Part shown: in pieces, positions 4,986 through 31,381 of the stretch | How the letters are laid out: the number at the start of each line of letters is the position of its first letter | Position numbering within the stretch: the first letter of the stretch is position 1 | NCBI GenBank assembly: GCA_017992055.1 | Contig: JAGOPK010000001.1 | Span: 972,573 to 1,036,572, forward strand | Direction of reading: 5' to 3' | DNA: 64,000 bases | Source: Burkholderiaceae bacterium | Lineage (GTDB): Bacteria; Pseudomonadota; Gammaproteobacteria; Burkholderiales; Burkholderiaceae_C | Program-made: the position numbers and the translations under genes | The notes under the pieces: model-generated | What the model saw: the letters and a program-made list of their open reading frames with translations, nothing else | Database searches by the model: none | What the model was told of the DNA's origin: nothing

Positions 4986-4999
4986 TTGAACTGGTTCAA
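4986..4999 (-). promoter_or_regulatory. NNR/FNR box upstream of nirC
   Basis: TTGAACTGGTTCAA, an inverted repeat with 7-bp arms CTTGAAC/GTTCAAG when one flanking base is added on each side. This is the pattern bound by Dnr/NnrR-type Crp/Fnr regulators. A GACCAT hexamer lies on the minus strand at 4963-4958, the distance expected for a class II -10 element. The box contains the TGA stop codon (4998-4996) of the gene upstream. Confidence 0.8.
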
Positions 5000-5772
5000 G
5001 AGGACTCGTGCTGCGCTGCCACCGTGCCGTGCTCGAGGTCGATCTGCAGCAGCGCCCCGGCCGTGGCCGCCAGCAGCCGACCATCCGGCCGGGCGCGCAC
5101 CCAGCGCAGCGGCGCCGGCACGGCCAGCGACTGCAGGGCCTGGCCGTCGGCATCCAGCCAGTGCAGCAGCGGCCGCGCCGCATCGGGCACGGCCAGGCCT
5201 GCGCGGCCGTGGCGCTGGCACCAGGTGCCGGCCCGCGGCCGCGGGTCGCCGCCCACCGCCCAGGCGGCGGCGCGGCGCCGTGCGTCCAGGTTGTAGCCCA
5301 GCACCGGCTGGCCGGGCGCCGCACCCACCAGCAGCAGGCCGGCCGCGTCGAGCGTGATGTGGGCCAGCGGATGGGGCAGGCGGGTGCGTCGCAGATGCAG
5401 AAAGCCCGGCACCGGCAGGCCCTCGCCCATGCGGAAGTCGTGCACCAGGCCCTCGTACTGCGGCTCGGCATGGGGGTCCAGCGAGATCTCCCACAGCTCG
5501 GGCAGGGCGGCTGGCGCGACGACCACGCTGCGCCGCGTGGCCGAGGCCAGCAGCTCGCCACCGCCGGGCAGCGGCCAGCGCTTCAGCACCTGGCCACGGT
5601 CGGTGGCCAGCAGCTGCAGCTCGTCGGCGCCGGCTGGGGCCTGCAGGCGCCAGCGGCCGCCGTCGGCCAGCACGCTGTCGACCGCATCCTGCTCGTGCAG
5701 ATCGTGCAGAGCGCGCGGTGCCGCCGGGGCCTGACGCGGCATTGCAGCGGCCAGCGACAGCAGCGCCGGCAC
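4996..5772 (-). CDS. Unrecognised exported protein of the nir cluster, propeller-like
   Basis: 258 residues from a GTG start. I do not recognise a named family. The first part (VPALLSLAAAMPRQAPAAP, preceded in frame by four Arg codons) looks like an export signal, so the true start may be an upstream non-ATG codon overlapping the previous stop. The body has repeated W/V-rich strands (RWRLQAPAG, LWEISLDP, LLHWLDADGQ, LRWVRARPDGRLLAA) like a small beta-propeller, and a YEGLVHDFRMGEGLPVPGF segment. There is no CXXCH site. It sits between the cupredoxin gene and nirC, so a role in nitrite reduction or heme d1 handling is an inference from position only. Confidence 0.6.
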   Translation of the reverse strand: MPALLSLAAAMPRQAPAAPRALHDLHEQDAVDSVLADGGRWRLQAPAGADELQLLATDRGQVLKRWPLPGGGELLASATRRSVVVAPAALPELWEISLDPHAEPQYEGLVHDFRMGEGLPVPGFLHLRRTRLPHPLAHITLDAAGLLLVGAAPGQPVLGYNLDARRRAAAWAVGGDPRPRAGTWCQRHGRAGLAVPDAARPLLHWLDADGQALQSLAVPAPLRWVRARPDGRLLAATAGALLQIDLEHGTVAAQHESS

Positions 5773-5786
5773 AACGCGGCGGCGCC

Positions 5787-6137
5787 TCAGGGCAGCACCT
5801 CGATCAGGCCGCGCATCTCGGGATGCGGGCCGCAGTCGTAGGCATAGCGGCCCGGCTGGTCGAAGCGGCGCTCCCAGTGCTCGCCGGGCAGCAGGCGCTC
5901 GCTTTCCAGGCCGCCCTCGGCGGCAAAGCGCACCGAGTGCGAGCTGCGCTTCTCGTCGTTGATCCAGCGCACCGTGCTGCCGGCGGCGATGCTCAGCGTC
6001 GCCGGCTCGAAGCGGTGGCCGTGGATGCGCACGATGGCCGGCAGGCCGGGCCCGGCCGCTTCAGCCCCGGGCAGCGCGCACAGGCCCAGCAGGCCGACCT
6101 GCAGCGCGTGGCGGCGGGACCGGTGGTGCGCGCGCAT
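5787..6137 (-). CDS. Cupredoxin-domain periplasmic copper protein
   Basis: 116-residue small blue-copper-type protein. An N-terminal signal (MRAHHRSRRHALQVGLLGLCALPGAEA) precedes a plastocyanin/azurin-like domain. The type 1 copper ligands are visible: His in SSHSVRF, then Cys, His and Met in YDCGPHPEMRG near the C-terminus. It is probably an electron donor or carrier between the cytochrome bc1 complex or NirT and NirS, in the way azurin or pseudoazurin works; this is inferred from the fold and the nir location. The start at 6137 gives a complete signal peptide; in-frame sequence upstream overlaps the preceding gene and was not used. Confidence 0.8.
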   Translation of the reverse strand: MRAHHRSRRHALQVGLLGLCALPGAEAAGPGLPAIVRIHGHRFEPATLSIAAGSTVRWINDEKRSSHSVRFAAEGGLESERLLPGEHWERRFDQPGRYAYDCGPHPEMRGLIEVLP

Positions 6138-6144
6138 CACGGAC

Positions 6145-7029
6145 TCACTGCTTGGCGGCGGTGATGTCGGCCTTGGCGTCCAGGCCCAGCGTATAGCCCA
6201 GCGAGACATGGTGGAAGCGCCCGGCGCTGTGGTCGTCGTGGATGGCGAAGCCGAAGTTGACGGTCTTGCCCGGGGCCAGGGTCACATCGCCCTCGCCACC
6301 GGCGAGCTTGCGGGTGAACACCACCACCCACTCGTCGCCCTTCTTCTCGCCCTTGGCCTCCAGCAGGGCCTTGCCGCCGTCCATCACCCGCTTGTCGGCG
6401 ACGTAGCCGTCGGACTTGCCGCCCTTGCTGGTCCATTGCAGCAGGTCGTAGAACTTGCCGCTGGCCAGCGAGCCGCCGACGACGTACTTGGTCTTCTTGT
6501 CGTCCTTGCCATCGGGCATGGTGCGTGCGTCGGTGTGGCAGGTCTCCCAGCAGCCCGACAGGTTGGCGCGCTCGACCTTGTTGTCCTCGAGCATGAAGGC
6601 CAGCTTGACGGCATTGTCCTTGTCCATCTTGTCGGCGCCGCCGGCGGGCTGCTTCCAGGCGAAGCGCAGGTACAGGTTGGCGCCGTCGTGGGCCGCCTGC
6701 AGCTTGACCGGGATGCTGCCGGCCTTGCCCTTGATGGGCGCGGGCTCGTTCTTCTGGCCGCTGGCCAGCTTCTTGCCCATGTCGGCGGCTTCTTCCTGGT
6801 GGCAGCTGGCGCAGCTTTCGCCCTTCTTCAGCGCGCGGGCGCCGCCGTGCTCGCTGCCCTTGGTGATCCACTCGATCGGCGAGGCGCCCGGGTAGAACAG
6901 GGTGATGGACTTGGCGGGCACCTTGGACCAGTCGGGCGCCGCGGCCAGCGCACTGCTGCCGGCGAAGAGGCCGCCGGCGGCGCCCAGAGCGCACGCGGCG
7001 AGGAGGGGAAGTCGGTTCAGGGGCTTCAT
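6145..7029 (-). CDS. Periplasmic cytochrome with ethylbenzene-dehydrogenase-like heme domain
   Basis: 294 residues with a signal peptide (about 1-31). A canonical heme c site CASCH lies at residues 73-77. The remaining sequence (NLYLRFAWKQP, VKLAFMLEDN, VNFGFAIHDDHSAGRFHHVSLGYTLGL) matches the EB_dh/DMSO-reductase heme-binding beta-sandwich type. A second cysteine pair reads CWETCH at 160-165, which is CX3CH rather than CX2CH. In position it stands where Pseudomonas stutzeri has NirB (cytochrome c552) next to NirT, but the fold differs. Likely a periplasmic electron-transfer protein for NirS. Exact function unknown. Confidence 0.7.
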   Translation of the reverse strand: MKPLNRLPLLAACALGAAGGLFAGSSALAAAPDWSKVPAKSITLFYPGASPIEWITKGSEHGGARALKKGESCASCHQEEAADMGKKLASGQKNEPAPIKGKAGSIPVKLQAAHDGANLYLRFAWKQPAGGADKMDKDNAVKLAFMLEDNKVERANLSGCWETCHTDARTMPDGKDDKKTKYVVGGSLASGKFYDLLQWTSKGGKSDGYVADKRVMDGGKALLEAKGEKKGDEWVVVFTRKLAGGEGDVTLAPGKTVNFGFAIHDDHSAGRFHHVSLGYTLGLDAKADITAAKQ

Positions 7030-7095
7030 GGTGTGGCCTGTGTTGGGGTGGCAGGGGAGCGAGGGGGGGGACGCTTGCGCGGCGCGACGGCCGGC

Positions 7096-7698
7096 TCAGT
7101 CCTGTTCCTCGGGCATGTTCTGCGGCTTGTGGTGGGCAATGCCCTTGTGGCAGTCGATGCAGGTCTCGTTGTTCTTCACCGCCAGCTGGTGCGACTTCTG
7201 CGCGCGCGGCTTCTGCGCCTGCGAGTTCATCGACTTGAAGTCGTGGCAGTTGCGGCATTCCAGCGAGTCGTTGGCCTTCATGCGCGCCCACTCGCTCTGC
7301 GCCAGCTGCAGCCGCTTGGCCTCGAACTTCTCGCGCGTATCGATGGAGCCGGTGAGCTTGCCCCAGACCTCGCGCGAGGCCTGGATCTTGCGGATCATCT
7401 TCGGGCCCCATTCCTTGGGCACGTGGCAGTCGGGGCAGGTGGCGCGCACGCCGGTGCGGTTGGTGTAGTGGATGGTGTTTTCCGAATACTCCTTGTAGAC
7501 GTTGTCGCGCATCTCGTGGCAGCTGATGCAGAAGGCCTCCTTGTTGGTGGCCTCCAGCACGGTGTTGAAGCCGCCCCAGAGCACCACGCCGGCGACGATG
7601 CCGATGCCCAGCAGGGCCAGCAGCGAGCGTGGGCTCGGGCGCAGCAGGGCTTGCCAGGTCCGCCTCAGCAGGCCCGGGCGGGAGGGGGTGTCGGCCAT
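7096..7698 (-). CDS. nirT: NirT, membrane-anchored tetraheme cytochrome c (NapC/NirT family)
   Basis: 200-residue quinol-oxidising cytochrome of the NapC/NirT family. One N-terminal transmembrane anchor (about residues 25-45) is followed by four heme c sites: CISCH (57-61), CPDCH, CRNCH and CIDCH. It would take electrons from the quinol pool and pass them to periplasmic carriers for NirS. It lies just downstream of nirS in the same direction, with a 73-bp gap. It is closely similar to the NapC encoded at 25755-26459, sharing long stretches around all four heme sites. The 67-bp gap to the next cytochrome gene shows no terminator. Confidence 0.9.
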   Translation of the reverse strand: MADTPSRPGLLRRTWQALLRPSPRSLLALLGIGIVAGVVLWGGFNTVLEATNKEAFCISCHEMRDNVYKEYSENTIHYTNRTGVRATCPDCHVPKEWGPKMIRKIQASREVWGKLTGSIDTREKFEAKRLQLAQSEWARMKANDSLECRNCHDFKSMNSQAQKPRAQKSHQLAVKNNETCIDCHKGIAHHKPQNMPEEQD

Positions 7699-7771
7699 GC
7701 GGGCCTCCTCACTGGATCGGGAAATCGGGCGCCCGGGCGCCGCCTGGGGCGGCCACCCGGGCGGGCACACA

Positions 7772-9457
7772 TCAGTAGATGTCGTGCTGGGTGTTGTAGA
7801 CGTTGAACTTGCCGGTCGGGGTGACGATGGCCGGATCGGTGATCACCTTCTTCAGCTTCAGGGTCTTGTCGTCGTAGATCACGATCGCCGACTGGTCGGT
7901 CTTGCCGCCCCACAGCGAGATCCACACCTCGTCACCCGCCTGGTTGTATTCGGGGTGGGTGGCGCGGCGCAGCGCCTTGGTCTCGGGCAGGCCGGAGTCC
8001 TTGGCCACGTCCAGCTTCACCGGGGCCTTGTTCAGGTCCTTGAGGTTGTAGACATAGACCGACTCGGCGTTTTCACGCTCGGGGTTCATCGGCAGGTCGG
8101 CCCACAGGTTGCCCGACTTGGGATGGGTCTTGACGAACAGGTTGCCGGCGCCCGGGGTCTTCAGCTCCTGCACCACCTTCCAGTTGTGCTGCTTGAACTT
8201 GGCATGCTTGGGATCGTCCGAGGGCGTGGAGATCAGCGTGATGGCCGCGTCGCCCAGGTGGCCGGTGGCCCACACCGGACCGTACTGCGGGTGCATGAAG
8301 TTGGCGCCGCGGCCCGGGTGCGGGATCTTCTTGGTGTCCACCAGCGCGGCCAGCTTGCCGGTCTTGGTGTCCACCGCGGCGATCTTGTGCGAGGCATTGG
8401 CGGCCACCAGGAAGTAGCGCTTGGACTGGTCCCAGCCGCCGTCGTGCAGGAACTTGGCCGACTCGATGGTGGTGGTCTTCAGGTTCTTGATGTCGCTGTA
8501 GTCGACCAGCATGATCTGGCCGGTCTCCTTGATGTTGACCACCCATTCCGGCTTGGTCATCGACGAGACGATCGAGGCCACGCGCGGCTCGGGGTGGTAC
8601 TCGCCGTCCACCGTGTTGCCCCGCGTCGAGACGATCTTCATCGGCTTGAGCGTCTCGCCGTCCATGATCGAGAACTGGGGCGGCCAGTAGGTGCCGCCGA
8701 TCAGGTACTTGTCCTCGTAGCCCTTGAACTTGGAGGTGTCGACCGAGCGCGCGTCGGCGCCCAGCTTGACCGTGGCCACCGTCTGCGGCGTCTCGTACCA
8801 GAGGTCGATTAGCGTCACCAGGCCGTCGCGGCCGACGGTGTAGACATAGCGGCCCGAGGCCGACAGGCGTGAGATGTGCACCGCATAGCCGGTGTCCAGC
8901 ACCTTCCAGATCTGCTTGGTGTCACCGTCCACCAGGGCCAGCTTGCCGGCGTCGCGCAGCGTGATCGCGAACACGTTCTGCAGGTTGATCTTGTTGCGCT
9001 GCGCCTTGGGCCGCTGGTCCACCGGCACCAGCAGCTTCCAGCTGGCCTCCATGTCCTTCAGGCTGAACTCGGGCGGCACATCCGGCACGTTCTGGATGTA
9101 GCGCGCCATGATGTTGATCTCGTCCTTGGACAGGATGTCGTCGTAATTGACCATGCCGCCCTCGGTGCCCAGGGCGATGATCTTTTCCAGGCGCGCGGTG
9201 CCCAGCTTGAGCGTGCCGCCTTCCTGCACGCTGCCGTCGGCACCCTTCTTCGACCACATCGGCTCCAGGTTCTTGCCGGTGGCGCCCTTGCGCAGCACGC
9301 CGTGGCAGCCCGCGCAGCGTTCGAAATAGATCTTCTTGCCGATCTCCTTCTCCTGCGGGCTCAGTGGCGGTGCCGCGGTCTGCGCCAGGACGCCCTGGGC
9401 CAGGCCGGCCAGCAGCAAAGCGAAGGTCAGACGGGGCAGGGAGCTGTGCTTTCTCAT
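7772..9457 (-). CDS. nirS: NirS, cytochrome cd1 nitrite reductase
   Basis: 561-residue periplasmic enzyme that reduces nitrite to nitric oxide. It has a signal peptide (about 1-25, ending AQG-VLAQ), a cytochrome c domain with CAGCHG at 48-53, and an eight-bladed d1 propeller that fills the rest of the chain (for example ISRLSASGRYVYTVGRDG and the C-terminal FNVYNTQHDIY). Length matches the family. The ATG at 9457 is chosen because it starts the signal peptide; it has a GAAGGA ribosome site upstream. It is the first gene of the minus-strand nir run and lies about 145 bp from the NNR palindrome it shares with nirE. Confidence 0.98.
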   Translation of the reverse strand: MRKHSSLPRLTFALLLAGLAQGVLAQTAAPPLSPQEKEIGKKIYFERCAGCHGVLRKGATGKNLEPMWSKKGADGSVQEGGTLKLGTARLEKIIALGTEGGMVNYDDILSKDEINIMARYIQNVPDVPPEFSLKDMEASWKLLVPVDQRPKAQRNKINLQNVFAITLRDAGKLALVDGDTKQIWKVLDTGYAVHISRLSASGRYVYTVGRDGLVTLIDLWYETPQTVATVKLGADARSVDTSKFKGYEDKYLIGGTYWPPQFSIMDGETLKPMKIVSTRGNTVDGEYHPEPRVASIVSSMTKPEWVVNIKETGQIMLVDYSDIKNLKTTTIESAKFLHDGGWDQSKRYFLVAANASHKIAAVDTKTGKLAALVDTKKIPHPGRGANFMHPQYGPVWATGHLGDAAITLISTPSDDPKHAKFKQHNWKVVQELKTPGAGNLFVKTHPKSGNLWADLPMNPERENAESVYVYNLKDLNKAPVKLDVAKDSGLPETKALRRATHPEYNQAGDEVWISLWGGKTDQSAIVIYDDKTLKLKKVITDPAIVTPTGKFNVYNTQHDIY

Positions 9458-9586
9458 GATGGGTTCAGTCCTTCGTTGGCCGCGGCGGTTGCCGGCTGCC
9501 ACCCTTCTTTAGGTGCCATGCGCGGGCTCGCATTCACAGGCGGCGCTGGATTCGGCGAGCGGCGCAATGGTCCCCCCGACGGTGAT

Positions 9587-9618
9587 CCAGCGTCCTTGAA
9601 CCAGTTCAAGGACGCTGG
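9587..9618. promoter_or_regulatory. Shared NNR box in a 32-bp perfect palindrome between nirS and nirE
   Basis: The core TTGAACCAGTTCAA (9596-9609) is an NNR/Dnr-type site. It is embedded in a longer perfect inverted repeat with arms CCAGCGTCCTTGAAC and GTTCAAGGACGCTGG around a 2-bp centre. Toward nirE a GAACAT hexamer at 9632-9637 sits 32 bp from the box centre, as expected for a class II -10, giving a leader of about 20 nt. Toward nirS the -10 is not clear. The site probably controls both genes. Confidence 0.82.
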
Positions 9619-9664
9619 GCCGGGGCGCATCGAACATGGCCGGGATCAATTTGGAGTCCATCCC

Positions 9665-10552
9665 ATGGCCGTCGTCGACCTGCTGCCGCCCCGGCGCGGC
9701 GAAACCGAACCCGCACCCGGGCCTGCGCACACGCCGGGCCAGCCCGGCCGCGTCACCCTGGTGGGCGCCGGTCCCGGCGACCCCGACCTGCTGACGCTGC
9801 GTGCGCTGCGCGCGCTGCAGTCGGCCACCCTGGTGCTGCACGACCACCTGGTGGCGCCCGAGGTGCTGGCCCTGGTGCCGGCCACGGCCGAGCGCATCTA
9901 CGTGGGCAAGGAGAGCGGCGCGCACACGCTGCAGCAGACGGCCATCACCGAGCTGATGCTGGGCCTGGCGCGCAGCGGCCGGGCGGTGCTGCGGCTCAAG
10001 GGCGGCGACCCCTACATCTTCGGCCGCGGCGGCGAGGAGGCGCAGGCCCTGGCCGCGGCCGGCGTGCCCTTCGAGGTCGTGCCCGGCATCAGCTCGGCCC
10101 AGGCCGCCGCGGCCCTGGCCGGCATGCCGCTGACCCACCGCGACCATGCCGACGCGGTGGTGCTGGCCACCGGCCACCTGCGTGCCGAGCGCCAGCCCGG
10201 GGGGCCGGGCCCGGAGCTGGACCTGGATCTGGACTGGGCCCGGCTGGCACGGCCGCACCAGACGGTGGTGATCTACATGGGCGTGGGCGCGCTGCCGCTG
10301 ATCTGCAGCGGCCTGGTGGCCCATGGCCTGCCGGCCGAGACACCGGCAGCCACCGTCGAGCGCGCTTCGCGCAGCGACCAGCGCATCACCGTCGGCACCC
10401 TGGCCAGCCTGCCGCGGCTGGCCCAGGCCCAGGGCGTGCGCGCGCCAGCGCTGATCTTCGTCGGCGGCGTGGTCGGCCTGCATGCCGAGCTGGCGGCCGG
10501 TGGCCGCAGCCTGCCGGTCGCGGCGGCGACAGCATCACGGGCTGCGGCTTGA
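9665..10552 (+). CDS. nirE: NirE, uroporphyrinogen-III C-methyltransferase
   Basis: 295-residue SAM-dependent enzyme that methylates uroporphyrinogen III at C2 and C7 to give precorrin-2, the entry to siroheme and heme d1. The family signatures are present: VTLVGAGPGDPDLLTLRALR (about 30-49), LRLKGGDPYIFGRGGEE, and VPFEVVPGISSAQAA. It is a stand-alone SUMT, without the CysG oxidase/chelatase part. Its divergence from nirS across an NNR box supports the nirE assignment over a cobalamin cobA. Ribosome site GGAG is at 9652. Its TGA stop lies inside the NNR box of the ccm operon. Confidence 0.93.
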   Translation: MAVVDLLPPRRGETEPAPGPAHTPGQPGRVTLVGAGPGDPDLLTLRALRALQSATLVLHDHLVAPEVLALVPATAERIYVGKESGAHTLQQTAITELMLGLARSGRAVLRLKGGDPYIFGRGGEEAQALAAAGVPFEVVPGISSAQAAAALAGMPLTHRDHADAVVLATGHLRAERQPGGPGPELDLDLDWARLARPHQTVVIYMGVGALPLICSGLVAHGLPAETPAATVERASRSDQRITVGTLASLPRLAQAQGVRAPALIFVGGVVGLHAELAAGGRSLPVAAATASRAAA

Positions 10553-10590
10553 CTTGAGTCAAGACGAAGCATGTCCGGGGTTCGCAGAAT
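10549..10590 (+). promoter_or_regulatory. NNR/FNR-dependent promoter of the ccm operon
   Basis: TTGACTTGAGTCAA at 10549-10562 is a symmetric FNR/NNR-type site (arms CTTGACT/AGTCAAG). A CAGAAT hexamer at 10585-10590 is centred 32 bp from the box centre, the class II -10 position, so transcription should begin near 10597. The distal half-site contains the stop codon of nirE. Confidence 0.75.
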
Positions 10591-10627
10591 GCGCCTGTCC
10601 GATCCCTGGCGGATCGGGCCATGCGCC

Positions 10628-11341
10628 TTGAACCCCACTACCCCTTCCTCCTTCTCCGTTGATCACGCCGACGCCTGGCTGCAGACGCGGCAGCTGGTCG
10701 GCGCGCGCAACGGCCAGCGCCTGTGGGGCCCGCTGTCGCTGCGGCTGGCGCCGGGCGAGGCCCTGCATGTGCAAGGCCCCAATGGCAGCGGCAAGACCAC
10801 GCTGCTGCGCACCCTGGCCGGGCTGCGGCCGCCGGCGCTGGGCCAGGTGCAGTCCTCGCCGGCGCTGCAGGCCGGTGGCCTGTGGTGGCTGGGCCATGCA
10901 CTGCCGCTGGCCGACGCCCTGGACGCGCAGCACAACCTGCTGCACTGGCTGGCGCTGGCCGGCGCCCCGGTCGACGCCCAGGCCGTGGCCCGGCAGCTGC
11001 AGCGCCTGCAGGTGCCGGCCGGGCGGCCGCTGCGCCAGCTGTCGGCCGGCCAGCGGCGCAAGACCGGCCTGGCCGTGCTGGCGCTGGCGCCGCGCCCGCT
11101 GTGGCTGCTGGACGAACCCTTCGATGCACTCGACCAGGCCGGCTGCGACTGGCTGGCCGAGCTGGCCGCGGCGCATTGCGCGGCCGGCGGCGCCCTGGTC
11201 TTCAGCGCCCACCAGGTGCCGCCGGGCGCCCTGGCCCGGGCCCGGGTGCTGAACCTGCAGCCGGCGGCCGCGCCCGCCAGTGCCGAAACGGCCAGCCAAT
11301 CGGCCCGCCAAGCGGCCACGCCGGTCTGGGCCGGGGCATGA
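10628..11341 (+). CDS. ccmA: CcmA, heme exporter ATP-binding subunit
   Basis: 237-residue ABC ATPase of the CcmABCD complex, which releases holo-CcmE during cytochrome c maturation. Walker A GPNGSGKTT lies at 50-58, the signature LSAGQRRK at about 140, and Walker B LWLLDEPFDALD at about 158-169. The TTG at 10628 is chosen as start because the promoter predicted from the NNR box begins transcription near 10597; the in-frame ATGs at 10571 and 10589 would lie before or inside the -10. That choice is inference. The gene ends in an ATGA overlap with ccmB. Confidence 0.88.
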   Translation: MNPTTPSSFSVDHADAWLQTRQLVGARNGQRLWGPLSLRLAPGEALHVQGPNGSGKTTLLRTLAGLRPPALGQVQSSPALQAGGLWWLGHALPLADALDAQHNLLHWLALAGAPVDAQAVARQLQRLQVPAGRPLRQLSAGQRRKTGLAVLALAPRPLWLLDEPFDALDQAGCDWLAELAAAHCAAGGALVFSAHQVPPGALARARVLNLQPAAAPASAETASQSARQAATPVWAGA

Positions 11342-12033
11342 GCATGCTGGCCAACCGTCCCTGGCTGCCGGCGCTGCAGGCCGTGCTGGCGCGCGAATGG
11401 CGCCTGGCCTGGCAGCGCCCGGCCGATCTGGGCCTGCAGGCGGTGTTCTTCATCGTCGTCACCAGCCTGTTTCCGCTGGCCCTGCAGCCCGAGGCCAGGC
11501 TGCTGCAGACACTGGCGCCGGGCGTGCTGTGGGTGGCGGCCTTCCTGGCCGTGCTGCTGGCCAGCGTGCGGCTGTTCGACGAAGACCTGCGCAGCGGCTG
11601 GCTGGACCAGTGGCGCTTGTCCGGCGTGCCGCTGGCCCTGCTGATGGCCGCGCGCATGGCCGTGCAATGGGCGCTGGCGGCGCTGCCGGTGCTGATCGTC
11701 GCGCCGCTGGTGGCGCTGCAGTTTGCGCTGGCGCGCGAGGCCCTGGCCACGCTGCTGCTGGCCCTGGCCCTGGGCACCGGCGTGCTGGCCATGCTGGCGG
11801 CGGTGGCCGCGGCGCTGTCGGCCGGCCTGCGTGGCCAGGCCTCGCTGGCCGTGCTGCTGGTGCTGCCGCTGGCCACGCCGGCCCTGGTGTTCGGCACGCT
11901 GGCCGTGGCCCGCGCCCAGCAGGGCCTGCCGGCGGCGGCCGAGCTGTCGCTGCTGGGGGCCATGGCCGCCTTCAGCGCCGCGCTGGGGCCGTGGATCGGT
12001 GGCGCAGCCCTGCTCGCTGCGGTGGAAAGTTAG
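11338..12033 (+). CDS. ccmB: CcmB, heme exporter membrane subunit
   Basis: 231-residue inner-membrane protein with about six transmembrane segments (for example VFFIVVTSLFPLAL, LWVAAFLAVLLA and LPLATPALVFGTL). It is the channel-like partner of the CcmA ATPase in the CcmABCD complex. The FDEDLRSGWLDQW segment after the second membrane span is typical of the family. The ATG at 11338 overlaps the ccmA stop (ATGA); a second in-frame ATG follows at 11344. Confidence 0.94.
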   Translation: MSMLANRPWLPALQAVLAREWRLAWQRPADLGLQAVFFIVVTSLFPLALQPEARLLQTLAPGVLWVAAFLAVLLASVRLFDEDLRSGWLDQWRLSGVPLALLMAARMAVQWALAALPVLIVAPLVALQFALAREALATLLLALALGTGVLAMLAAVAAALSAGLRGQASLAVLLVLPLATPALVFGTLAVARAQQGLPAAAELSLLGAMAAFSAALGPWIGGAALLAAVES

Positions 12034-12036
12034 CCC

Positions 12037-12840: not shown

Positions 12841-13021
12841 CTGGCTTGCGCCGCTGTTCAACATCCACTGGGCCGACTGGCCGGCGTTCTGGGCCATGGG
12901 CCGCCATGGCGCCTATGTCTGGCCGGCCGTGGCCCTGAGTGCCGTGCTGCTGCTGGCCGAGCGCTGGCAGCTGTCGCGCCAGATCCGCGCCCAGGGCCAG
13001 GCCGGGGAGGAGCGGTCATGA
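12833..13021 (+). CDS. ccmD: CcmD, small membrane subunit of the heme exporter
   Basis: 62-residue protein with one transmembrane helix ([19 protein letters not shown]) followed by a basic cytoplasmic tail ([14 protein letters not shown]). CcmD stabilises the CcmABC complex and helps release heme-loaded CcmE. It overlaps the end of ccmC by 8 bp and its stop overlaps the ccmE start in an ATGA. Identified by size, topology and position between ccmC and ccmE. Confidence 0.88.
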
Positions 13022-13479
13022 AGCCCCGCCACCGCCGCCTGGGCCTGCTGCTGGCCGTGCTGCTGCTGCTGGGCCTGGCCGGCACGCTGGCCGCGCGCGC
13101 GCTGCGCAGCAACCTGGTGTTTTTCGTCACGCCGGCGCAGATCGCCGCCGGCGAGGCCGCCGGTCGCGAGCTGCTGCGCGTGGGCGGCATGGTGCGCGCC
13201 GGCTCGGTGCGGCGCATCGGTGACGGCACCGAGCTGCACTTCGTCATCGCCGACTCGCGCCATGCGGTGCCGGTGGTCTACCGCGGCGTGCTGCCCGACC
13301 TGTTTGCCGAAGGCCAGGGCGCGGTGGCCCAGGGCCGGCTGCAGGCCGATGGCACGCTGCAGGCCAGCGAGGTGCTGGCCAAGCACGACGAGAACTACCG
13401 GCCGCCGGGCATGGATGCCGCGCCCTCGGGCGCGGCCGGCCATCCCGGCGCCCAGGCCGCCACCGGAGCCCGGCCATGA
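13018..13479 (+). CDS. ccmE: CcmE, periplasmic heme chaperone
   Basis: 153-residue protein that carries heme covalently bound to a histidine and hands it to CcmF/CcmH. It has an N-terminal membrane anchor (about 8-28), an OB-fold body ([20 protein letters not shown]) and the heme-attachment motif [12 protein letters not shown] with the binding His at about residue 123. The tail after that is Pro/Ala/Gly-rich and probably disordered. Overlaps both neighbours by ATGA. Confidence 0.96.
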
Positions 13480-17596: not shown

Positions 17597-17650
17597 GCCG
17601 GCATTCTGGGCCGGCGCCGCCCAGCCGCCCAGCCCCAGATCAGGCGGGCT

Positions 17651-23050: not shown

Positions 23051-23080
23051 GATGTCCAACGGGTTCGGGTGTTCGGGAAT

Positions 23081-24604
23081 TCAGCGCTGGGCGGCCTGGG
23101 CCATCGCGGCCGGCAGGCCCTCGGGGCCGGCCTGCCAGCCGCCGCCCAGGGCCTTGGCCAGTGCCACCTGGGCCTGCAGCACGCGGCCCTGCAGCTCCAG
23201 CTCGTTGCGCTGCTGGGCCAGCAGGCCCAGCTCGGCCTGCAGCAGCGGCGCGCGCGAGCCCAGGCCGGCCTCGGCGCGCTGGCGTGCCAGCGCCTGCTGG
23301 GCCTGGGCGGCCTGGCTGGCCTGCTGCTGGGCCTGCTGCTGGCGCGCCAGGGCCTGCAGGCTGGCGATCTCGTCGGCCACCTCGCGCAGGGCGCGCAGCA
23401 GCGTGCCGTCGTAGCCGGCCACCGCGGCCTGCACCTCGGCCTGGCGCCCGCCCAGCTGGGCACGCAGCCGGCCGCCGTCGAACACCGGCAGGCGCAGCGC
23501 CGGGCCCACGCCATAGGTCAGGGCGCCGGCTTCGACGAAGTTCTGCAGCCCCAGGCTGGACAGGCCGACGAAGGCCGTCAGGTTGAGGTTGGGATAGAAC
23601 TGGGCGCGCGCCACGTCCACCTCGCGCAGCGCGGCCTCGACGCGCCAGCGCTGGGCCACCAGGTCGGCGCGCCGGCCCAGCAGGTCGGCCGGCAGCTGCT
23701 GCGGCAGCGCCTGGCTGGGCGCTTGGGCCGGCGGCAGCGCCGGCGCCAGTGTGGCCAGGGCCTGCGGTGCCTGGCCGCTGAGCTCGGCCAGTGCATGGCG
23801 GCTGCGCTGCACGGCCTCGTCCAGCTGGGCCAGCTCGGCGCGGGCCTGGGCGATGCTGCCATCGGCCTGGCGCAGCTCGATCTCGGTGTCCAGGCCGGCT
23901 TCGCGGCGCTGGCGCACCAGCTGCTGCAGCTGCTGGCGCCGCAGCAGCGTGGCCTCGACCAGGCGCTGCTGGGCCAGCTGGCGTGCCAGCTGCACCCAGG
24001 CGGCGCTGATCTGGCTGGACAGCAGCAGCCGCGCGGCCTGGGCCTCGGCGGCGGCGGCACGGGCCTGGCCGATGGCCGCGGCCAGTGCCGCCTGCTGGCG
24101 GCCGAACAGGTCCAGCTCCCAGCTGAAGCCCAGCGTGGCGCTGTTGTTCCAGCGGATGCTGCCGGCCACCGGCTTGGGCACCAGGCCGTTTTCGGTGAAG
24201 CGCTGGTCGGTGAGGTCCACCGACAGCTGGGCCTGCGGCCCCTGGGCGGCACGGGGGATGCCCAGCGCCGCCTCGGCCTGGTCCAGCCGGGCAGCGGCCA
24301 GGGCCAGCGTGGGCTGGCTGTCCAGGGCGCGTGCGATCAGGGCCGACAGCTGCGCGGCCTCGCCCGGGGCGGCAAAGGCCAGCCAGGCCTGCTCGCCGGG
24401 CCAGGGCAGCTCGGCGGCGGTTTGGGGGCTGTTGGGGCTGGGGTCGGCGAGGCCCAGCTGCTGGGCGCTCAGCGGTTGGGCCAGTGGGCGCCGGGCCTGC
24501 GGGCCGGGGCTGGCGCAGCCGGCCAGCAGGCAGGTCAGGCCGGTCAGGGCCAGCACCGCGGCGGCCAGTCTCAGCGGGGGGGTCTTGTTCGGGGGCAGCA
24601 TCAT
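23081..24604 (-). CDS. NodT/OprM-type outer membrane efflux lipoprotein
   Basis: 507 residues. A lipoprotein signal with lipobox-like LLAGC at about residues 25-29 precedes two outer membrane efflux repeats with long coiled helices, for example VEAALREVDVARAQFYPNLN and the SWELDLFGRQQAAL signature of NodT-type factors. It completes the tripartite pump with the EmrA/EmrB-like proteins. The first of two consecutive ATGs at 24604 overlaps the marR stop (ATGA). The 30-bp gap to emrA shows no terminator. Confidence 0.92.
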   Translation of the reverse strand: MMLPPNKTPPLRLAAAVLALTGLTCLLAGCASPGPQARRPLAQPLSAQQLGLADPSPNSPQTAAELPWPGEQAWLAFAAPGEAAQLSALIARALDSQPTLALAAARLDQAEAALGIPRAAQGPQAQLSVDLTDQRFTENGLVPKPVAGSIRWNNSATLGFSWELDLFGRQQAALAAAIGQARAAAAEAQAARLLLSSQISAAWVQLARQLAQQRLVEATLLRRQQLQQLVRQRREAGLDTEIELRQADGSIAQARAELAQLDEAVQRSRHALAELSGQAPQALATLAPALPPAQAPSQALPQQLPADLLGRRADLVAQRWRVEAALREVDVARAQFYPNLNLTAFVGLSSLGLQNFVEAGALTYGVGPALRLPVFDGGRLRAQLGGRQAEVQAAVAGYDGTLLRALREVADEIASLQALARQQQAQQQASQAAQAQQALARQRAEAGLGSRAPLLQAELGLLAQQRNELELQGRVLQAQVALAKALGGGWQAGPEGLPAAMAQAAQR

Positions 24605-25098
24605 GTCTTGGGCGGGAAGGCGGCAGGGGGGGCGACCGTCGGCAGCTCGGCGGCGTTGGCCAGCAGGCGGTCGAGCAGCTGGGTCAGCATCTGGCGTTCG
24701 GCCTCGCTGAAGCCGCGCTGCAGGTCCTGGTTGACGGTGGCCAGCACCGCCGGCACCTGGGCCACGGCGCTGTGGCCGGCCTGGCTGAGCGCCAGCTGCA
24801 CCACGCGCCGGTCGGTGGCCGAGCGCGTGCGCGCCACCAGGCCCTTGGCCTCCAGCCGGTCGAGCAGGCGGGTCACGGCGCCGGCATCGGTGTCCAGCTC
24901 GCGCGCCAGCTCGGCCGGCGTGGTGGCGCGGCCGATGTGCAGCAGCCACAGCGGCTTCCATTGCGCATCGGTCAGGCCATGGGCGGCCATGCGGGCATCG
25001 GCCTCGCGGCGCAGCAGCGACACCAGGCGCACCAGGCGGTGGCCGACGCTTTGCGCCACGCTGGCGGGAAAGGGGACGGGGGGGCTGGGGTCGGCCAT
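24601..25098 (-). CDS. MarR-family regulator of the efflux operon
   Basis: 165-residue winged-helix repressor. The DNA-binding part reads TTPAELARELDTDAGAVTRL (about residues 57-76) with the wing RSATDRRVVQLALSQAG. It is the first gene of the marR-OMF-emrA-emrB operon and overlaps the next gene. A 40-bp imperfect palindrome lies about 50 bp upstream of its start and is the likely operator, so the gene probably represses its own operon until a ligand binds. Confidence 0.93.
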   Translation of the reverse strand: MADPSPPVPFPASVAQSVGHRLVRLVSLLRREADARMAAHGLTDAQWKPLWLLHIGRATTPAELARELDTDAGAVTRLLDRLEAKGLVARTRSATDRRVVQLALSQAGHSAVAQVPAVLATVNQDLQRGFSEAERQMLTQLLDRLLANAAELPTVAPPAAFPPKT

Positions 25099-25130
25099 GC
25101 GGCGCTCGGGCGGTGGCGGGGGGGGCTGCT

Positions 25131-25170
25131 TGTCAGGTCAATACTTGCTTAGGCAAATTTTGACATGACA
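25131..25170. promoter_or_regulatory. Likely MarR operator, 40-bp imperfect palindrome
   Basis: Inner core TTGCTTAGGCAA (25145-25156) and outer arms TGTCAGGTCAA (25131-25141) and TTGACATGACA (25160-25170, one mismatch) share the same centre at 25150.5. The region is also clearly AT-richer than its surroundings, as expected for a promoter. Placement just upstream of the marR start supports an autoregulatory operator. Confidence 0.7.
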
Positions 25171-25398
25171 CAGGCCAATCCCTGCCGCCACCGGGGTCAT
25201 GCCGGCGTGAATTGCTGCAGCTGGCGGCACCTGAAAGAGGGCCCCGGCATGGGTTCCCTCCACGCCCCCGCCACCGGCCCCCTGGCGGGGGAAGCCGCCG
25301 CAGGCCGGGCTGCGAACAATGGATTCGGCCCGGTCACACCCGACAGGTGCCGGGCCGGTTCATCCCCGTCCGTTCACATCGCTCGAAAGGAGCCCGCC
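25171..25398. other. Intergenic region between marR and the HhH gene
   Basis: 228 bp without a convincing gene. It holds a perfect 9-bp stem, CCCCCGCCA (25265-25273) paired with TGGCGGGGG (25283-25291), without a T run. A good ribosome site AAAGGAG lies at 25387-25393 in front of the next gene. An open frame from 25165 continues into the next gene but has no family-like sequence before 25399. Confidence 0.5.
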
Positions 25399-25746
25399 AT
25401 GATCCGCATGCGTCCATTGATTGCCGCCCTGCTGGGCGCGCTGGCCCTGGCGGCCGGCGGCGCCTGGGCCGCCACCGAGGCCAACCGCGCCAGCCAGGCC
25501 GAGCTGGAGACGGTCAAGGGCATCGGCCCGGCACTGTCGGCCAAGATCCTGGCTGCGCGCCAGCAAGCGCCGTTCAAGGACTGGGCCGATCTGCAGCAGC
25601 GCGTGGCCGGCATCGGTGCCGGCAATGCGGCCCGCATGTCGCAGGCCGGGCTGACGGTGGCCGGCGCGGCCTATGCGCCGGTGGACGTGGCCACGTCGGC
25701 CACCACCGCCGCGGCGCCGGCGAAGAAGCCGCGCGACGCCCGCTAG
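25399..25746 (+). CDS. Exported ComEA-like helix-hairpin-helix protein
   Basis: 115 residues. A signal peptide (MIRMRPLIAALLGALALAAGGAWA) is followed directly by a double helix-hairpin-helix domain (NRASQAELETVKGIGPALS and WADLQQRVAGIGAGNAARM), as in ComEA DNA receptors and small secreted HhH proteins. The C-terminal Ala/Thr/Lys tail is low complexity. Likely binds DNA in the periplasm, perhaps in uptake, but no competence genes are nearby. The ATG at 25399 has a strong ribosome site. It ends 8 bp from the convergent napC. Confidence 0.85.
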   Translation: MIRMRPLIAALLGALALAAGGAWAATEANRASQAELETVKGIGPALSAKILAARQQAPFKDWADLQQRVAGIGAGNAARMSQAGLTVAGAAYAPVDVATSATTAAAPAKKPRDAR

Positions 25747-25754
25747 GCGCGGCC

Positions 25755-26459
25755 TCAGCCGCCGGCCGAAGCAGCCTTGTCTGCGGCCTTGTCTGCAGGC
25801 TTGTCCGCCGAGGCCGGCGCCGAGCTGGGCGGCGGCACCTCGGCCGCGCCGACCTTGGGCGCGCCGATGCTCTGCTCGATGGCCGGCAGCGAGTGGGCAA
25901 TGCCCTTGTGGCAGTCGATGCAGGTCAGGCCCTTGTTGAAGGCTTCCTGGTGCATGGAGGCCGAGCGCCGGTTCTGCTCGGAATAGTCCATGAACTCGAA
26001 GTGGTGGCAGTTGCGGCACTCGCGGCTGTCGGTGCGCTTCATGCGGTCCCACTCGTGCTGGGCCAGCTCGGCACGCTTGGCATTGAACTTCTCCGGCGTG
26101 TCGATGGTGCCCAGCACCTTGTGCAGCACCTCGTTGCTCGCCTGGATCTTGCGGATGATCTTGTGCGTCCACTCCTTGGGCACATGGCAGTCCGGGCAGG
26201 TGGCGCGCACGCCGGTGCGGTTCTGGTAGTGGATGGTGTTGCGGTACTCCACGTAGACGTTGTCGCGCATCTCGTGGCAGGAGATGCAGAACTCCTCGCG
26301 GTTGGTCAGCTCCATCGCGGTGTTGAAGCCGCCCCAGAACAGGATGCCGGTGACAAAGGCGCTGGCCATGATGGCGAAGCGCCGCGTCTTCACCAGGGCC
26401 CAGCCTCGGGCCAGCAGTCCCGGCCTGGCGCCGGCGTCGGATGCTTGTTGGTCGGCCAT
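25755..26459 (-). CDS. napC: NapC, tetraheme quinol dehydrogenase for periplasmic nitrate reductase
   Basis: 234-residue membrane-anchored cytochrome that oxidises quinol and feeds NapAB. One N-terminal transmembrane helix (about 27-47) is followed by four heme c sites, CISCH (58-62), CPDCH, CRNCH and CIDCH. A Pro/Ala/Lys-rich tail follows the last heme. It is the last gene of napDAGHBC. It is very similar to the NirT at 7096-7698, with near-identical segments such as NRTGVRATCPDCHVPKEW. Confidence 0.95.
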   Translation of the reverse strand: MADQQASDAGARPGLLARGWALVKTRRFAIMASAFVTGILFWGGFNTAMELTNREEFCISCHEMRDNVYVEYRNTIHYQNRTGVRATCPDCHVPKEWTHKIIRKIQASNEVLHKVLGTIDTPEKFNAKRAELAQHEWDRMKRTDSRECRNCHHFEFMDYSEQNRRSASMHQEAFNKGLTCIDCHKGIAHSLPAIEQSIGAPKVGAAEVPPPSSAPASADKPADKAADKAASAGG

Positions 26460-26483
26460 GTCGTCCTCCTCGCTGCGCGGTGT

Positions 26484-26954
26484 TTACTGCAGGCCGCGGG
26501 CGCGCTGGAAGGTGTTGTCCACCAGCGGCTTGGCGTCGGTCTGCGGCACATGGCACTGGGTGCAGAAGTAGCGCCGCGGGCTGATGTTGTCCAGCTCGGT
26601 ACCTTCGCGGGTCTTGAAGTGGGTCACGCTGACCTTGGTGGCGCCGCTCTGCTTGGCCTTCTGGAAGGCATGGCAGTCCATGCACTTGTTGAAGTTCTTG
26701 GTGATCTGGTAGTTGGCGATGGTGTGCGGGATCAGCGGCGGCTGCTGCACATAGTCGCGGTCCATCGGCGCGCGGTCACGCTCCTGGTGGCCGCCCAGCG
26801 GCGGGTTGTCCTGGTTCACCGGCGTGCCGCCGCGCAGGCTTTGCAGCTTGACCGGCTCGGCGGCCTGCACCGGCTGGGCCAGGTGCGCGCCGAAGGCGAC
26901 GAGGCCGGCGGCCAGTGCGAGCTTGACGAGGTTCAGGATGGTCAGCGGTCTCAT
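26484..26954 (-). CDS. napB: NapB, diheme subunit of periplasmic nitrate reductase
   Basis: 156-residue periplasmic diheme cytochrome c that passes electrons from NapC to NapA. A signal peptide (about 1-32) precedes two heme sites, CMDCH (91-95) and CTQCH (131-135), with the family segment PPLIPHTIANYQITKNFNKC and the distal His in THFKTREG. The ATG at 26954 starts the signal peptide and lies 2 bp after the end of napH. Confidence 0.96.
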   Translation of the reverse strand: MRPLTILNLVKLALAAGLVAFGAHLAQPVQAAEPVKLQSLRGGTPVNQDNPPLGGHQERDRAPMDRDYVQQPPLIPHTIANYQITKNFNKCMDCHAFQKAKQSGATKVSVTHFKTREGTELDNISPRRYFCTQCHVPQTDAKPLVDNTFQRARGLQ

Positions 26955-26956
26955 GG

Positions 26957-27874
26957 TCAGTCCCTCTTCGAATCGAGGCGGTGGGTGTAGCGGAAGACAT
27001 CGGGGCCGCAGACATCGATGCAGCGGCCGCAGTTGGTGCAGTTGGAATCGGTGATCACCGGGCCGTGGCCCTGCTTGCCCTTCAGCGGCAAGGCGATCAC
27101 CTGGGGTTCGGGGCAGACGGCATAGCAGTCGGCGCAGTCGTTGCAGCGGCTGGAATGGGTGGCGGCCACGCGCAGCAGGCTCTTGCTGCCGATCAGCGCA
27201 TAGGCCGCGCCCACCGGGCAGACCTGGCCGCACCAGCCGCGTGGCGCCACCAGCAGGTCGAACAGGAACACCGCGGCGGTGGCGCCCCAGGCCAGGCTGC
27301 CGCCGAAGATCAGCGCCCGCTGGGTCAGCGAGACCGGGTTCACCGCCTCCCACACGGCCTGGCCGCTGAGCGCGCTGGCCAGCAGCACCGCGGCCAGCAG
27401 CCACCAGCGCAGGCCGCCGCGCGGCGCACGGCCGCTGGTGATCTTGAGCCGGCGGCGCAGCCAGGACGCGCCATCGGTGACGGCATTCACCGGGCAGACC
27501 CAGCTGCAGAACACGCGGCCGCCGACCAGGGCATAGAAGCCGATGACGATGGCCGCGCCCAGCAGGGCGCTGGCCTCGGGCAGGTGGCGCGTGGCCAGCA
27601 CCTGGGCCAGCACGAAGGGATCGGTCAGCGGCAGCACGCCCAGCGTCAGCGACGAGGACAGATTGCCCTTGACGATCCACAGCCCGGCCAGCGGCCCGAG
27701 CAGGAACAGGCCCAGGATGCCGGCCTGCGAGGCCCGGCGCAGCAGCAGGAAGCGGTGCGCCCGCCACCAGCCCTTGGCCTGCACCGCAGCATGGCCCGGC
27801 GCCGGCGAGGCGGCCTCGCGCCGGCCGCCGAAGCTGCGGCTGATGACGCGCGGATCGGTCTGCAGGCCGCTCAT
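26957..27874 (-). CDS. napH: NapH, membrane quinol oxidase/iron-sulfur subunit
   Basis: 305 residues with four membrane helices, two CX3CP motifs at membrane boundaries ([10 protein letters not shown] and [10 protein letters not shown]), and two C-terminal 4Fe-4S ferredoxin motifs, [12 protein letters not shown] and [12 protein letters not shown]. With NapG it gives a second route for quinol electrons to NapAB. It overlaps napG by ATGA. Confidence 0.96.
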
Positions 27875-28704
27875 CGCTGCGCTCCAGAGGCCGGGCCGGC
27901 GCCATCGCCCATCGAGCCCGGATAGGGCAGGGCGCCCGAGCGCAGCCGCGACAGCTCGCCCTCGGCCGGTGCGGCCGGCAGGTTCTGCTGCTGCGGTTGA
28001 TCAAAGCGCGGCCGGGCATCGAGGTTGCCGCTCTCCCAGCCCTTGCGGTAGTGCGCGCCCAGCACGCCACGCGCCAGCGTGGCCGGCAGCACCTTGATCG
28101 CCGCCTGCTCCAGCACGCAGCTCTTTTCGCACTTGCCGCAGCCGGTGCAATCCTGCGCATGCACGGTGGGCAGCAGCATGGCGTGGCGGTCGCTGCGCGG
28201 GTTGCTGACCTTCTCCAGCGTGATGGCCTGGTCGATCACCGGGCACACGCGGTAGCAGACATCGCAGCGCAGGCCCAGGAAGTTCAGGCAGTTCTCCTGG
28301 TCGATCAGCACCGCCACGCCCATCTCGGCCTGGGTGATGTCGGTCAGGTGCGGGTCCAGCGCGCCGGTGGGGCAGGCCTTAACGCAGGGGATGTGCTCGC
28401 ACATCTCGCAGGGAATGTCGCGGGCGATGAAGTAGGGCGTGCCCACGGCCACGCCACGCGCCAGGCCGGCGTCGCCGCTCAGCGTGCCGAGCTTGAGGTT
28501 GCCCGGCGGGCAGTCGCGCACGCACAGGCCGCAGCGCACGCAGGCGCCGAGGAAGCGGTCTTCGTCGAGTGCGCCCGGCGGCCGCAGCGCCTGCGCCGGC
28601 CGGGCCTGCGCCGGACGGCCGACCAGGGCCGCACCGCCGGCGATCAGGCCGGCGGTGCTGGCGCTGGCGGCGCCTTGCAGCAGTTCACGTCGATTCAGGG
28701 CCAT
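27871..28704 (-). CDS. napG: NapG, periplasmic ferredoxin-type protein
   Basis: 277 residues. A twin-arginine-like signal ([20 protein letters not shown]) precedes four 4Fe-4S motifs: [35 protein letters not shown] and [12 protein letters not shown]. It partners NapH in electron transfer to NapAB. The C-terminal region after about residue 225 is Pro/Gln-rich and less conserved. It starts 28 bp after napA. Confidence 0.95.
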
Positions 28705-28732
28705 GGCGGCGGCAGTGCTGGGCTGGTGGTCC

Positions 28733-31291
28733 TCAGGCGCGCACGACCTTCACCGCGCACTTCTTGAAGTCGGTTTCCTTGCTGATCGGGCAGGTGGCGT
28801 CCAGCGTCAGCTTGTTGATCAGCTTGCCTTCGTCGAAGAAGGGCACGAAGACCAGGCCGCGCGGCACCTTGTTGCGGCCCTTGGTCTCCACATGCAGCAG
28901 CAACTCGCCGCGGCGCGAACTCACCTTGACCTGCATGCCGCGCTGGATGCCACGCGCCTTGGCGTCGTCGGGGTGCATGAACAGCTGGGCCTCGGGCACG
29001 GCACGGTGCAGCTCGGGCACGCGCCGCGTCATCGTGCCGGTGTGCCAGTGCTCCAGCACGCGGCCGGTGCACAGCCACAGGTCGAAGTCCTTGTCCGGGG
29101 CCTCGGCGGCGGGCTGGTAGGGCAGGGCGAAGATCACCGCCTTGCCGTCCTTGTGGCCGTAGAAGCGCACGCCCTCGCCCTTCTTCACATAGGGGTCGTA
29201 GCCTTCGCGGAAGCGCCACAGCGTCTCCTTGCCCTCGACCACCGGCCAGCGCAGGCCACGCACCTCGTGGTAGGTGTCGAAGGCCGCCAGGTCGTGGCCG
29301 TGGCCGCGGCCGAACTCGGCATATTCCTCGAACAGGCCCTTCTGCAGGTAGAAGCCCAGTTCCTTGCTCTCGTCGTTGGCGTAACCCGGGATGTACTTGG
29401 CATTGACCTTGGTGAGGTCGGCCACCGGGAACTTGTTGACCTTGCCGTTCTTGTAGAGCACGTCGAACAGGGTCTTGCCACGCAGCGAGGGCTGCTTGGC
29501 GATCAGCTCGGCCGGCCACACTTCCTCGACCTTGAAGCGCTTGCTGAACTCGATGTACTGCCACAGGTCGCTCTTGGCCTGGCCCGGGGCCGAGACCTGC
29601 TGGCGCCAGACCTGGGTGCGGCGCTCGGCATTGCCGAAGGCGCCTTCCTTCTCCACCCACATCGCGCTCGGCAGGATCAGGTCGGCGGCCATCGCGCTGA
29701 CGGTCGGATAGGCATCGCTGACGACGACGAAGCTGGCCGGGTTGCGCCAGCCGGGATAGACCTCGCCGTTGACGTTGGGACCGGCCTGCATGTTGTTGGT
29801 GGTGCTGGTCCAGTAGCACTTGAGCTTGCCGTCCTTCAGCGCGCGGCTCTGCGCCACCGCATGCAGGCCGATCTTGTCGGGGATGGTGCCCTCGGGCAGG
29901 CCCCAGATCTCCTCGGTGTGCTTGCGGTGCTCGGGATTGGTCACCACCATGTCGGCCGGCAGGCGGTGGGCGAAGGTGCCCACCTCGCGCGCCGTGCCGC
30001 AGGCGCTGGGCTGGCCGGTCAGGCTGAAAGGGCTGTTGCCGGGCTGGCTGATCTTGCCGGTCAGCAGGTGGATGTTGTAGACCATGTTGTTGGCCCAGGT
30101 GCCACGCGTGTGCTGGTTGAAGCCCATGGTCCACAGGCTCATCACCTTGACCTTCGGGTCGGCATACAGCTTGGCCAGGTCTTCGAGCTGCTTGACCGGC
30201 ACGCCCGACAGCTTGCTCACCTTCTCGGCCGTGTAGTCGCTGACGAACTTGGCGAAGTCGTCGAAGGTGATCGGCGTGGCGTCGTTGGGGCTGCCCTTGG
30301 GCTTGCCGTCGGCACCGGGATAGCCGTTGGCCTTGGCGTCCTTTTCCAGCGCATGGCCGGGGCGCAGGCCGTAGCCGATGTCGTCCACGCCCTTCTTGAA
30401 GTTGACGTGCTTCTTGACGAAGTCCTGGTTGACCTTGCCGTTCTTGATGATGTAGTGGGCGATGTAGTTCAGGATCGCCAGGTCGGTCTGCGGCGTGAAG
30501 ATGATGGGCAGGTCGGCCAGGTCGAAGCTGCGGTGCTCGAAGGTCGACAGCACCGCCACCTTGCAGCTGGGGTGCGACAGCCGGCGGTCGGTGATGCGGC
30601 TCCACAGCACCGGGTGCATCTCGGCCATGTTGCTGCCCCACAGCACGAAGGCGTCGGCCTGCTCGATGTCGTCATAGCAGCCCATCGGCTCGTCGATGCC
30701 GAAGGTGCGCATGAAGCCGGTCACCGCGCTGGCCATGCAGTGGCGCGCGTTCGGGTCGAGGTTGTTGGAGCGGAAGCCGGCCTTCCACAGCTTGGACGCC
30801 GCATAGCCCTCGAACACCGTCCACTGGCCCGAGCCGAACATGGCGATGCCGGTGGGGCCGTCGGCCTTCAGCGTCTCTTTCCACTTGGCGGCCATCAGGT
30901 CGAAGGCCTGGTCCCAGCTGACCGGCACGAAGTCGCCGTTCTTGTCGTACTGGCCGTTCTTCTGCCGCATCAGCGGCGTGGTCAGCCGGTCCTTGCCGTA
31001 CATGATCTTGGACAGGAAATAGCCCTTGATGCAGTTCAGGCCGCGGTTCACCGGCGCATCGGGGTCACCCTGGGTGGCGACGACCTTGCCGTCCTGCACA
31101 CCGACCATCACCGCGCAGCCGGTGCCGCAGAAGCGGCAGGGCGCCTTGTCCCAGCGCACCGCGCCAGCGGCGCCGGTAGCGCCGGTGCCCGATGCCGCCG
31201 GGGCGGCCTCGGCGACGATGGGGATGCCGGCGGCCGCGGCGGTGGCGGACAGGGCCTGGGACTTGATGAAGTCGCGACGGTTGGCTTGCAT
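28733..31291 (-). CDS. napA: NapA, catalytic subunit of periplasmic nitrate reductase
   Basis: 852-residue molybdenum enzyme that reduces nitrate to nitrite. A twin-arginine signal (NRRDFIKSQ, residues 4-12) precedes a 4Fe-4S site with Cys at 52, 55, 59 and 87 (CRFCGTGC and GLNCIKG). The molybdenum-ligand Cys is at about 185 in NARHCMASA. The C-terminal molybdopterin-dinucleotide-binding part contains [20 protein letters not shown]. The ATG at 31291 starts the Tat signal and has an AGGAGC ribosome site; in-frame sequence further upstream lies across the promoter. Confidence 0.98.
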
Positions 31292-31367
31292 GGAGAGCTC
31301 CTGACAGAGGAGAGGGCGTCGGTTACGGGTTTTCCCGGAATGTTGCGTTGCCAGCAGGGACAAGTCC

Positions 31368-31381
31368 TTGAACTGGTTCAA
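31368..31381 (-). promoter_or_regulatory. NNR/FNR box upstream of napA, inside the napD end
   Basis: TTGAACTGGTTCAA, the same 14-bp sequence as the nirC box. A CAACAT hexamer at 31345-31340 on the minus strand is centred 32 bp from the box centre, giving a start near 31333 and a leader of about 42 nt. The promoter-distal half-site contains the stop codon of napD, so napA has its own promoter within the operon. Confidence 0.78.

Follow-up and report, generated by a model that had tools for sequence, protein, structure and literature searches.

The 64,000-nucleotide (nt) stretch of DNA analysed here, referred to below as the window, comes from a Burkholderiaceae bacterium (contig JAGOPK010000001.1, positions 972,573 to 1,036,572) and carries nir, nap and nor genes together with predicted binding sites of the FNR/DNR type, in which the half-sites TTGA and TCAA stand six bases apart (TTGA-N6-TCAA). 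In three of these boxes the TGA also serves as the stop of the preceding gene, read in the same direction as the gene that follows. Seven exact TTGA-N6-TCAA palindromes were found in the 64-kilobase (kb) window, compared with 0.10 expected from dinucleotide shuffles:

4986-4999 (-): FNR/DNR-type box TTGAACCAGTTCAA, upstream of the cytochrome gene in the nirC position; its distal half-site carries the stop of the gene at 4996-5772 (-)
10549-10562 (+): FNR/DNR-type box TTGACTTGAGTCAA, upstream of ccmA; nirE stop inside the distal half-site
31368-31381 (-): FNR/DNR-type box TTGAACCAGTTCAA, upstream of napA; napD stop inside the distal half-site
37699-37712 (+): fourth same-direction box, with norD on one side and the gene of a crp/fnr-family regulator on the other; it lies 28 nt beyond the norD stop, which is separate
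9596-9609 (no strand assigned): box in the divergent nirS-nirE gap, without a same-direction upstream stop
31873-31886 (no strand assigned): box in the divergent napD-norC gap, without a same-direction upstream stop
31943-31956 (no strand assigned): second box in the divergent napD-norC gap, without a same-direction upstream stop

The genes beside the same-direction boxes are:

4586-4948 (-): small c-type cytochrome gene in the nirC position, with a Cytochrome_CBB3 domain; ATG 37 nt from the box edge
4996-5772 (-): gene of unknown family; TGA stop 4998-4996 in the box
9665-10552 (+): nirE-type uroporphyrinogen-III C-methyltransferase (SUMT) gene; TGA stop 10550-10552 in the box
10571-11341 (+): ccmA (TIGR01189, 154 bits, cutoff 131.6); start uncertain between ATG 10571, ATG 10589 and TTG 10628, the last being that of the gene caller
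28733-31291 (-): napA, from the called frame and a family match
31378-31713 (-): napD, from a NapD family match; TGA stop 31380-31378 in the box
37772-38494 (+): CRP/FNR-family regulator gene, with cNMP_binding and HTH_Crp_2 domains

The upstream frames 4996-5772 (-), 9665-10552 (+) and 31378-31713 (-) end exactly in the half-site, so that the TGA stops in the promoter-distal TTGA of the three boxes, and their coordinates, are as given in the original prediction. That prediction had counted eight boxes, three of them in the shared phase. The exact count is seven, and a one-mismatch site such as that at 31888-31901 may be the eighth; moreover, only the four boxes in same-direction junctions form the relevant denominator, which makes the share 3/4. 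The phase is indeed common to the three sites, but it adds no further coincidence, because TTGA contains one TGA and TCAA read forward contains no stop, and the half-site can therefore carry an upstream stop in one way only. A CRP/FNR-family regulator, which membership of the boxes in the FNR/DNR class demands, is encoded in the window itself. The nirS-nirE box lies within a perfect inverted repeat of 32 bases (9587-9618, with arms of 14 and a centre of 4).

Placement of the boxes and size of the gap

Three sets of loci were used for comparison. Set A, with 81 sources, combines the window with nir and nap loci taken from 200 genomes of its family. Of 24 napA loci it includes 23, and of 58 nirS genomes 57; in each case the one missing belongs to the own genome, whose napA locus (L046, that of the window) was excluded. 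Set B holds NorB loci from named genome contigs, taken as the best 80 of the matches listed, and some of its contigs overlap set A. Set C holds 47 NorB loci of the 65 NorB-bearing genomes among 398 phylum-wide genomes, leaving out G000, G091, G190 and 15 genomes with matches of 37-40% identity. Genes were called with a simple codon-usage caller written for this analysis, and boxes whose flanks were identical entered the counts a single time, except in the spacing scan described below. TGA accounts for 897/1115, 1038/1286 and 375/558 of the called stops in sets A, B and C, respectively.

The search for TTGA with the stop in place, followed after k bases by TCAA, over all called TGA stops and for k from 0 to 30, gave 12, 5 and 4 sites in sets A, B and C at k=6; the other 30 spacings together gave 15, 23 and 6 (44 in all, mean 1.5), with a largest pooled count of 6 at k=29. 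The spacing of six stands out in all three sets and is not due to chance placement. Among 109 same-direction junction boxes left after removal of identical contexts, 19 have the upstream stop exactly at the place reported for the window, no other offset occurs more than 4 times, and the final 60 nt of the upstream gene contain none of the boxes. The 19 fused boxes fall into 11 groups by their downstream protein. One of the 19 is doubtful: in L056, counted both here and among the 12 of set A, the next start follows after 6 nt, and this case is probably not a promoter. When L056 and the nirC case of the window (where the caller put the nirC start inside the box) were excluded and 14 further nap loci were added, 17 of 101 distinct junction boxes lay on the stop, compared with 1.2 expected under uniform placement (15/98 without the window). 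In this count no box was found in the end part of the upstream coding region, which holds 51 TTGA half-sites; elsewhere, boxes inside genes make up 17/138 in set A and 4/50 in the own genome. The original prediction had proposed to be judged by enrichment over chance in related genomes; such an enrichment is seen when position is the reference, but not when the supply of TTGA at stops is (see below).

Gap size governs the fusion of stop and box. The fused fraction falls from 7/9 in gaps of 40-70 nt and 8/21 in gaps of 70-100 nt to 1/28 at 100-130 nt and 1/55 at 130-300 nt, or from 15/30 at 40-100 nt to 2/83 at 100-300 nt; the 101-box count, with its own gap limits, gave 7/9, 8/20, 2/28 and 0/44. 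In the window, the three fused gaps measure 47, 75 (to the TTG start of ccmA; 18 to its first ATG) and 86 nt, and the unfused junction 101 nt. The distance from box to downstream start varies much less than that to the upstream stop: before norC the median is 76 nt (interquartile range 72-87), with an interquartile range of -134 to -36 for the offset of the stop, and before crp/fnr genes it is 80 nt (interquartile range 73-95). A called start lies 48-112 nt from 16 of the 19 fused boxes, and unfused same-direction boxes have a median of 79 nt. For the window itself the distance is 90 nt for napA and 51 nt for nirC, the latter with a start read by hand, and that for ccmA depends on the start chosen. 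Class II activators bind near position -41.5; a nirC transcript beginning 41.5 nt from the box centre would, with the ATG 51 nt from the box start, be an almost leaderless mRNA.

The whole own genome contains 52 boxes, of which 50 were placed: 20 lie between same-direction genes, and 7 of these are fused, namely the three of the window and four outside it (L004, L289, L298 and L299, each with the box at the locus centre). The gene after the L289 box resembles moaA, as judged from its sequence.

Fused and split junctions in relatives

At the norD-crp/fnr junction, which is split in the window, 3 of 25 loci are fused, and the well-supported branches of the NorD tree force three changes of state. 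NorD tails, whose motif is readable in 19 rows, comprise 32-33 amino acids where the site is fused and 31-33 in the others of these rows, whereas the gap measures 62-70 nt in the fused junctions and 78-267 nt in the others. This points to a norD fusion by way of a shorter spacer and not of a longer protein. L188 and L193, from Ideonella alba and I. aquatica, are one fused and the other split, and differ in this by a 12-nt indel between two copies of TTGATGCG; the nearest other relatives of this pair in the data are all split (L325 at -21, L181 and L186 at -27). In L193 the direct repeat TTGATGCG surrounds the norD stop and the box (L193:15107-15132; compare L188:15107-15120), and a slip of 12 nt from one copy to the other joins or separates stop and box. 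In two same-genus pairs, G638/G062 (L333, L116) and G774/G653 (L337, L336), the fused state has been kept despite a change in the box spacer; the context of L336 is identical to that of L165.

Ten close napD-napA loci were compared. Four are fused (the window, L047, L050, and L053 by its 20-kb locus L316), two are split, with napD ending 33-37 nt before the box (L049, L172), two have a box that by eye appears degenerate (L048, L054), and in two no box was found (L051, L052). The other two junctions of the window could not be polarised. By tblastn (best match per locus), nirE and ccmA matches within 3 kb were found at no other locus in the window, L046 and sets A-C, and matches resembling the unknown protein and NirC occurred close together in six other loci, at 31-42% identity.

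The unknown protein encoded at 4996-5772 (-) had no Pfam or NCBIfam family match. Matches at E<=0.001 were found in 58 of 200 family genomes, the own genome included, those in the 57 others being weak relatives; at E<=1e-40 a search of 399 family genomes gave only the protein itself and no relative in the remaining 398. A weak second match to it is located on the same contig, some 840 bases ahead of the start of the window.

How stop and box come to coincide

Taken together, these data led us to consider the three sites, with good confidence, as ordinary boxes of the FNR/DNR family which share a TGA with the preceding stop, which are predicted to serve internal promoters, and which in short gaps have fused with the stop. 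Such merging is expected in short gaps because both signals need TGA, TGA is the main stop, and the box keeps its distance to the start. The box keeps an almost constant distance to the downstream start, and the end of the upstream gene moves; as the gap contracts to some 45-100 nt, box and gene end meet, and where they do so in frame without read-through of the box, its TTGA becomes the stop. Fusion may have come about mainly by deletion in the spacer, or by the birth of a box on a ready-made TTGA stop, and not by selection for coupling.

A further question is whether boxes lie on stops more often than the supply of TTGA at stops would predict. Control spacings of 4, 5, 7, 8, 9 and 10 yielded 0-2 sites each in promoter-like places, not enough for a comparison, and box-less TTGA half-sites were therefore chosen as control. 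In gaps of 36-100 nt, 15/29 boxes and 55/98 box-less half-sites lie on the stop (p=0.68). After related junctions had been collapsed, the mean fraction was 0.57 for 16 box clusters and 0.45 for 59 box-less clusters in short gaps (p 0.58 on rounded counts), and 0.245 (36 clusters) and 0.236 (139 clusters) over all gaps (p 0.83 on rounded counts), neither difference being significant. Matching by distance to the start gave 16/100 boxes and 73/302 half-sites; an earlier, looser count, with boxes included among the half-sites, gave 19/109 and 226/777. The number of overlaps is that predicted by the TTGA supply at stops, and no special design is involved. The gap-matched comparison, and likewise that after collapsing, supports the suggestion that a gene end with TGA readily gives rise to a TTGA box. 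The other suggestion made for these sites, that the overlap saves space in setting an internal promoter into an operon, holds as a description, given that fusion is nearly confined to short gaps, but there is no sign that the overlap as such has been selected.

Several observations weigh against the account given here. Over all gap sizes and without collapsing, boxes lie on the stop less often than box-less half-sites do (17/101 and 75/250, p=0.011), a deficit that vanishes once related junctions are collapsed. The direction of change at the norD-crp/fnr junction is unproved, as the three changes in the tree may stand for a single gain followed by two losses. For the Ideonella pair, too, the polarity is unproved, since a fused site could have been split by a duplication. 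NapD tails vary, and at napD-napA an extension of the frame into an existing box is possible. Finally, the gene caller is simple and gives start codons only approximately, and genomes that are related do not count as independent observations.

The best of the other explanations, although in our judgement an unlikely one, is that the box is older and acted as a stop-codon trap: the upstream frame, deprived of its own stop, continued as far as the TGA of the box. Of the 10 close NapA loci, 8 retain the napA box in intact or degenerate form while napD ends vary, and the fused L047 and the split L049 are sisters with moderate support (82/85), both of which would fit such a capture. At norD-crp/fnr the fused NorD proteins are not longer than the others, which argues against extension as the route at that junction.

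It is far less likely still that the overlap itself has been selected, either as a link between termination of the first gene and a promoter of the second or because it locks the stop as TGA. The persistence of fused norD-crp/fnr sites in the two same-genus pairs would be in keeping with this, but the state has changed at least 3 times in 25 norD loci, and neither the gap-matched nor the collapsed comparison shows an excess over the TTGA supply. Since the number of fusions matches that supply, selection for overlap is not needed, and we have rejected it on this ground.

A mere coincidence of a TTGA gene end with a TCAA six bases further on, with no regulatory meaning, is highly improbable. TTGA ends are common (154/897 TGA stops in set A, 151/1038 in set B), and some of the boxes across the own genome must be due to chance, since a reversed control gave 24 for the 52 found; against this stand the prominence of the exact spacing of six in all three sets and the box-to-start distances of fused boxes, which resemble those of boxes that do not overlap a stop. 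We give next to no credit to a role of the inverted repeat in RNA, as a gene-end hairpin, attenuator or terminator, and have rejected it: the sites are palindromic, that at 9596 lies in a strong predicted hairpin (z -4.5 against shuffles), and that at 37699 has a moderate advantage over shuffles (z -2.2), but the three sites that carry a stop show little or no such advantage (z 0.1, -1.7 and -1.9), and no terminator-like site was found in 31200-31500, the sole stretch scanned.

Relation to known regulator sites and meaning

By analogy with what is known of the family, we infer that the boxes would bind an activator of the FNR/DNR type and drive an internal promoter. In 31200-31500, again the sole stretch scanned, there was no match to a sigma-70-type promoter. 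Overlapping gene ends are well known from ATGA stop-start overlaps, which are similar in that close packing of genes leads two signals to use common bases; they differ in that the element overlapped by the stop is here a predicted DNA binding site and not a start codon.

The DNR/FNR boxes of denitrification operons have been described with the consensus TTGATnnnnATCAA, that is, with TTGA and TCAA half-sites six bases apart, located before denitrification genes (Rodionov et al., 2005; PMC1274295). The boxes found here are of the same kind, with the difference that many of those before structural genes have AC/GT beside the half-sites (TTGAACnnGTTCAA). Across sets A-C two types of box can be seen, AC/GT flanks being commonest before norC, nirS-type genes, nirE and napA, and CG or TG before crp/fnr genes; the two types may reflect two regulators. 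The words "stop codon" do not occur in the main text of Rodionov et al. (2005; PMC1274295), and the portions of the open-access literature consulted (PMC1274295, PMC7763554, PMC8553145) contained no description of a regulator box that carries the stop of the upstream gene. The boxes are thus of a known kind, and their recurrent fusion with a stop is a variant for which no description was found and whose cause is ordinary.

Programs that search only intergenic stretches can miss fused sites of this kind. For the possible place of internal FNR/DNR promoters in packed operons a simple and testable rule emerges: in gaps of 40-100 nt, half of the box junctions in these data (15/30) begin at the preceding TGA. 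A change of the stop codon at a fused site would also harm the predicted promoter. A striking overlap of this kind can arise from two signals with three letters in common, without selection for the overlap. It is possible, if still rather doubtful, that half-sites of the CRP/FNR superfamily (TTGA, TGTGA) are general end points of gap contraction, at which the stop, once fused, is kept as TGA through selection for the regulator's site; if this were true, the regulator would shape both stop codon choice and operon spacing near CRP/FNR promoters.

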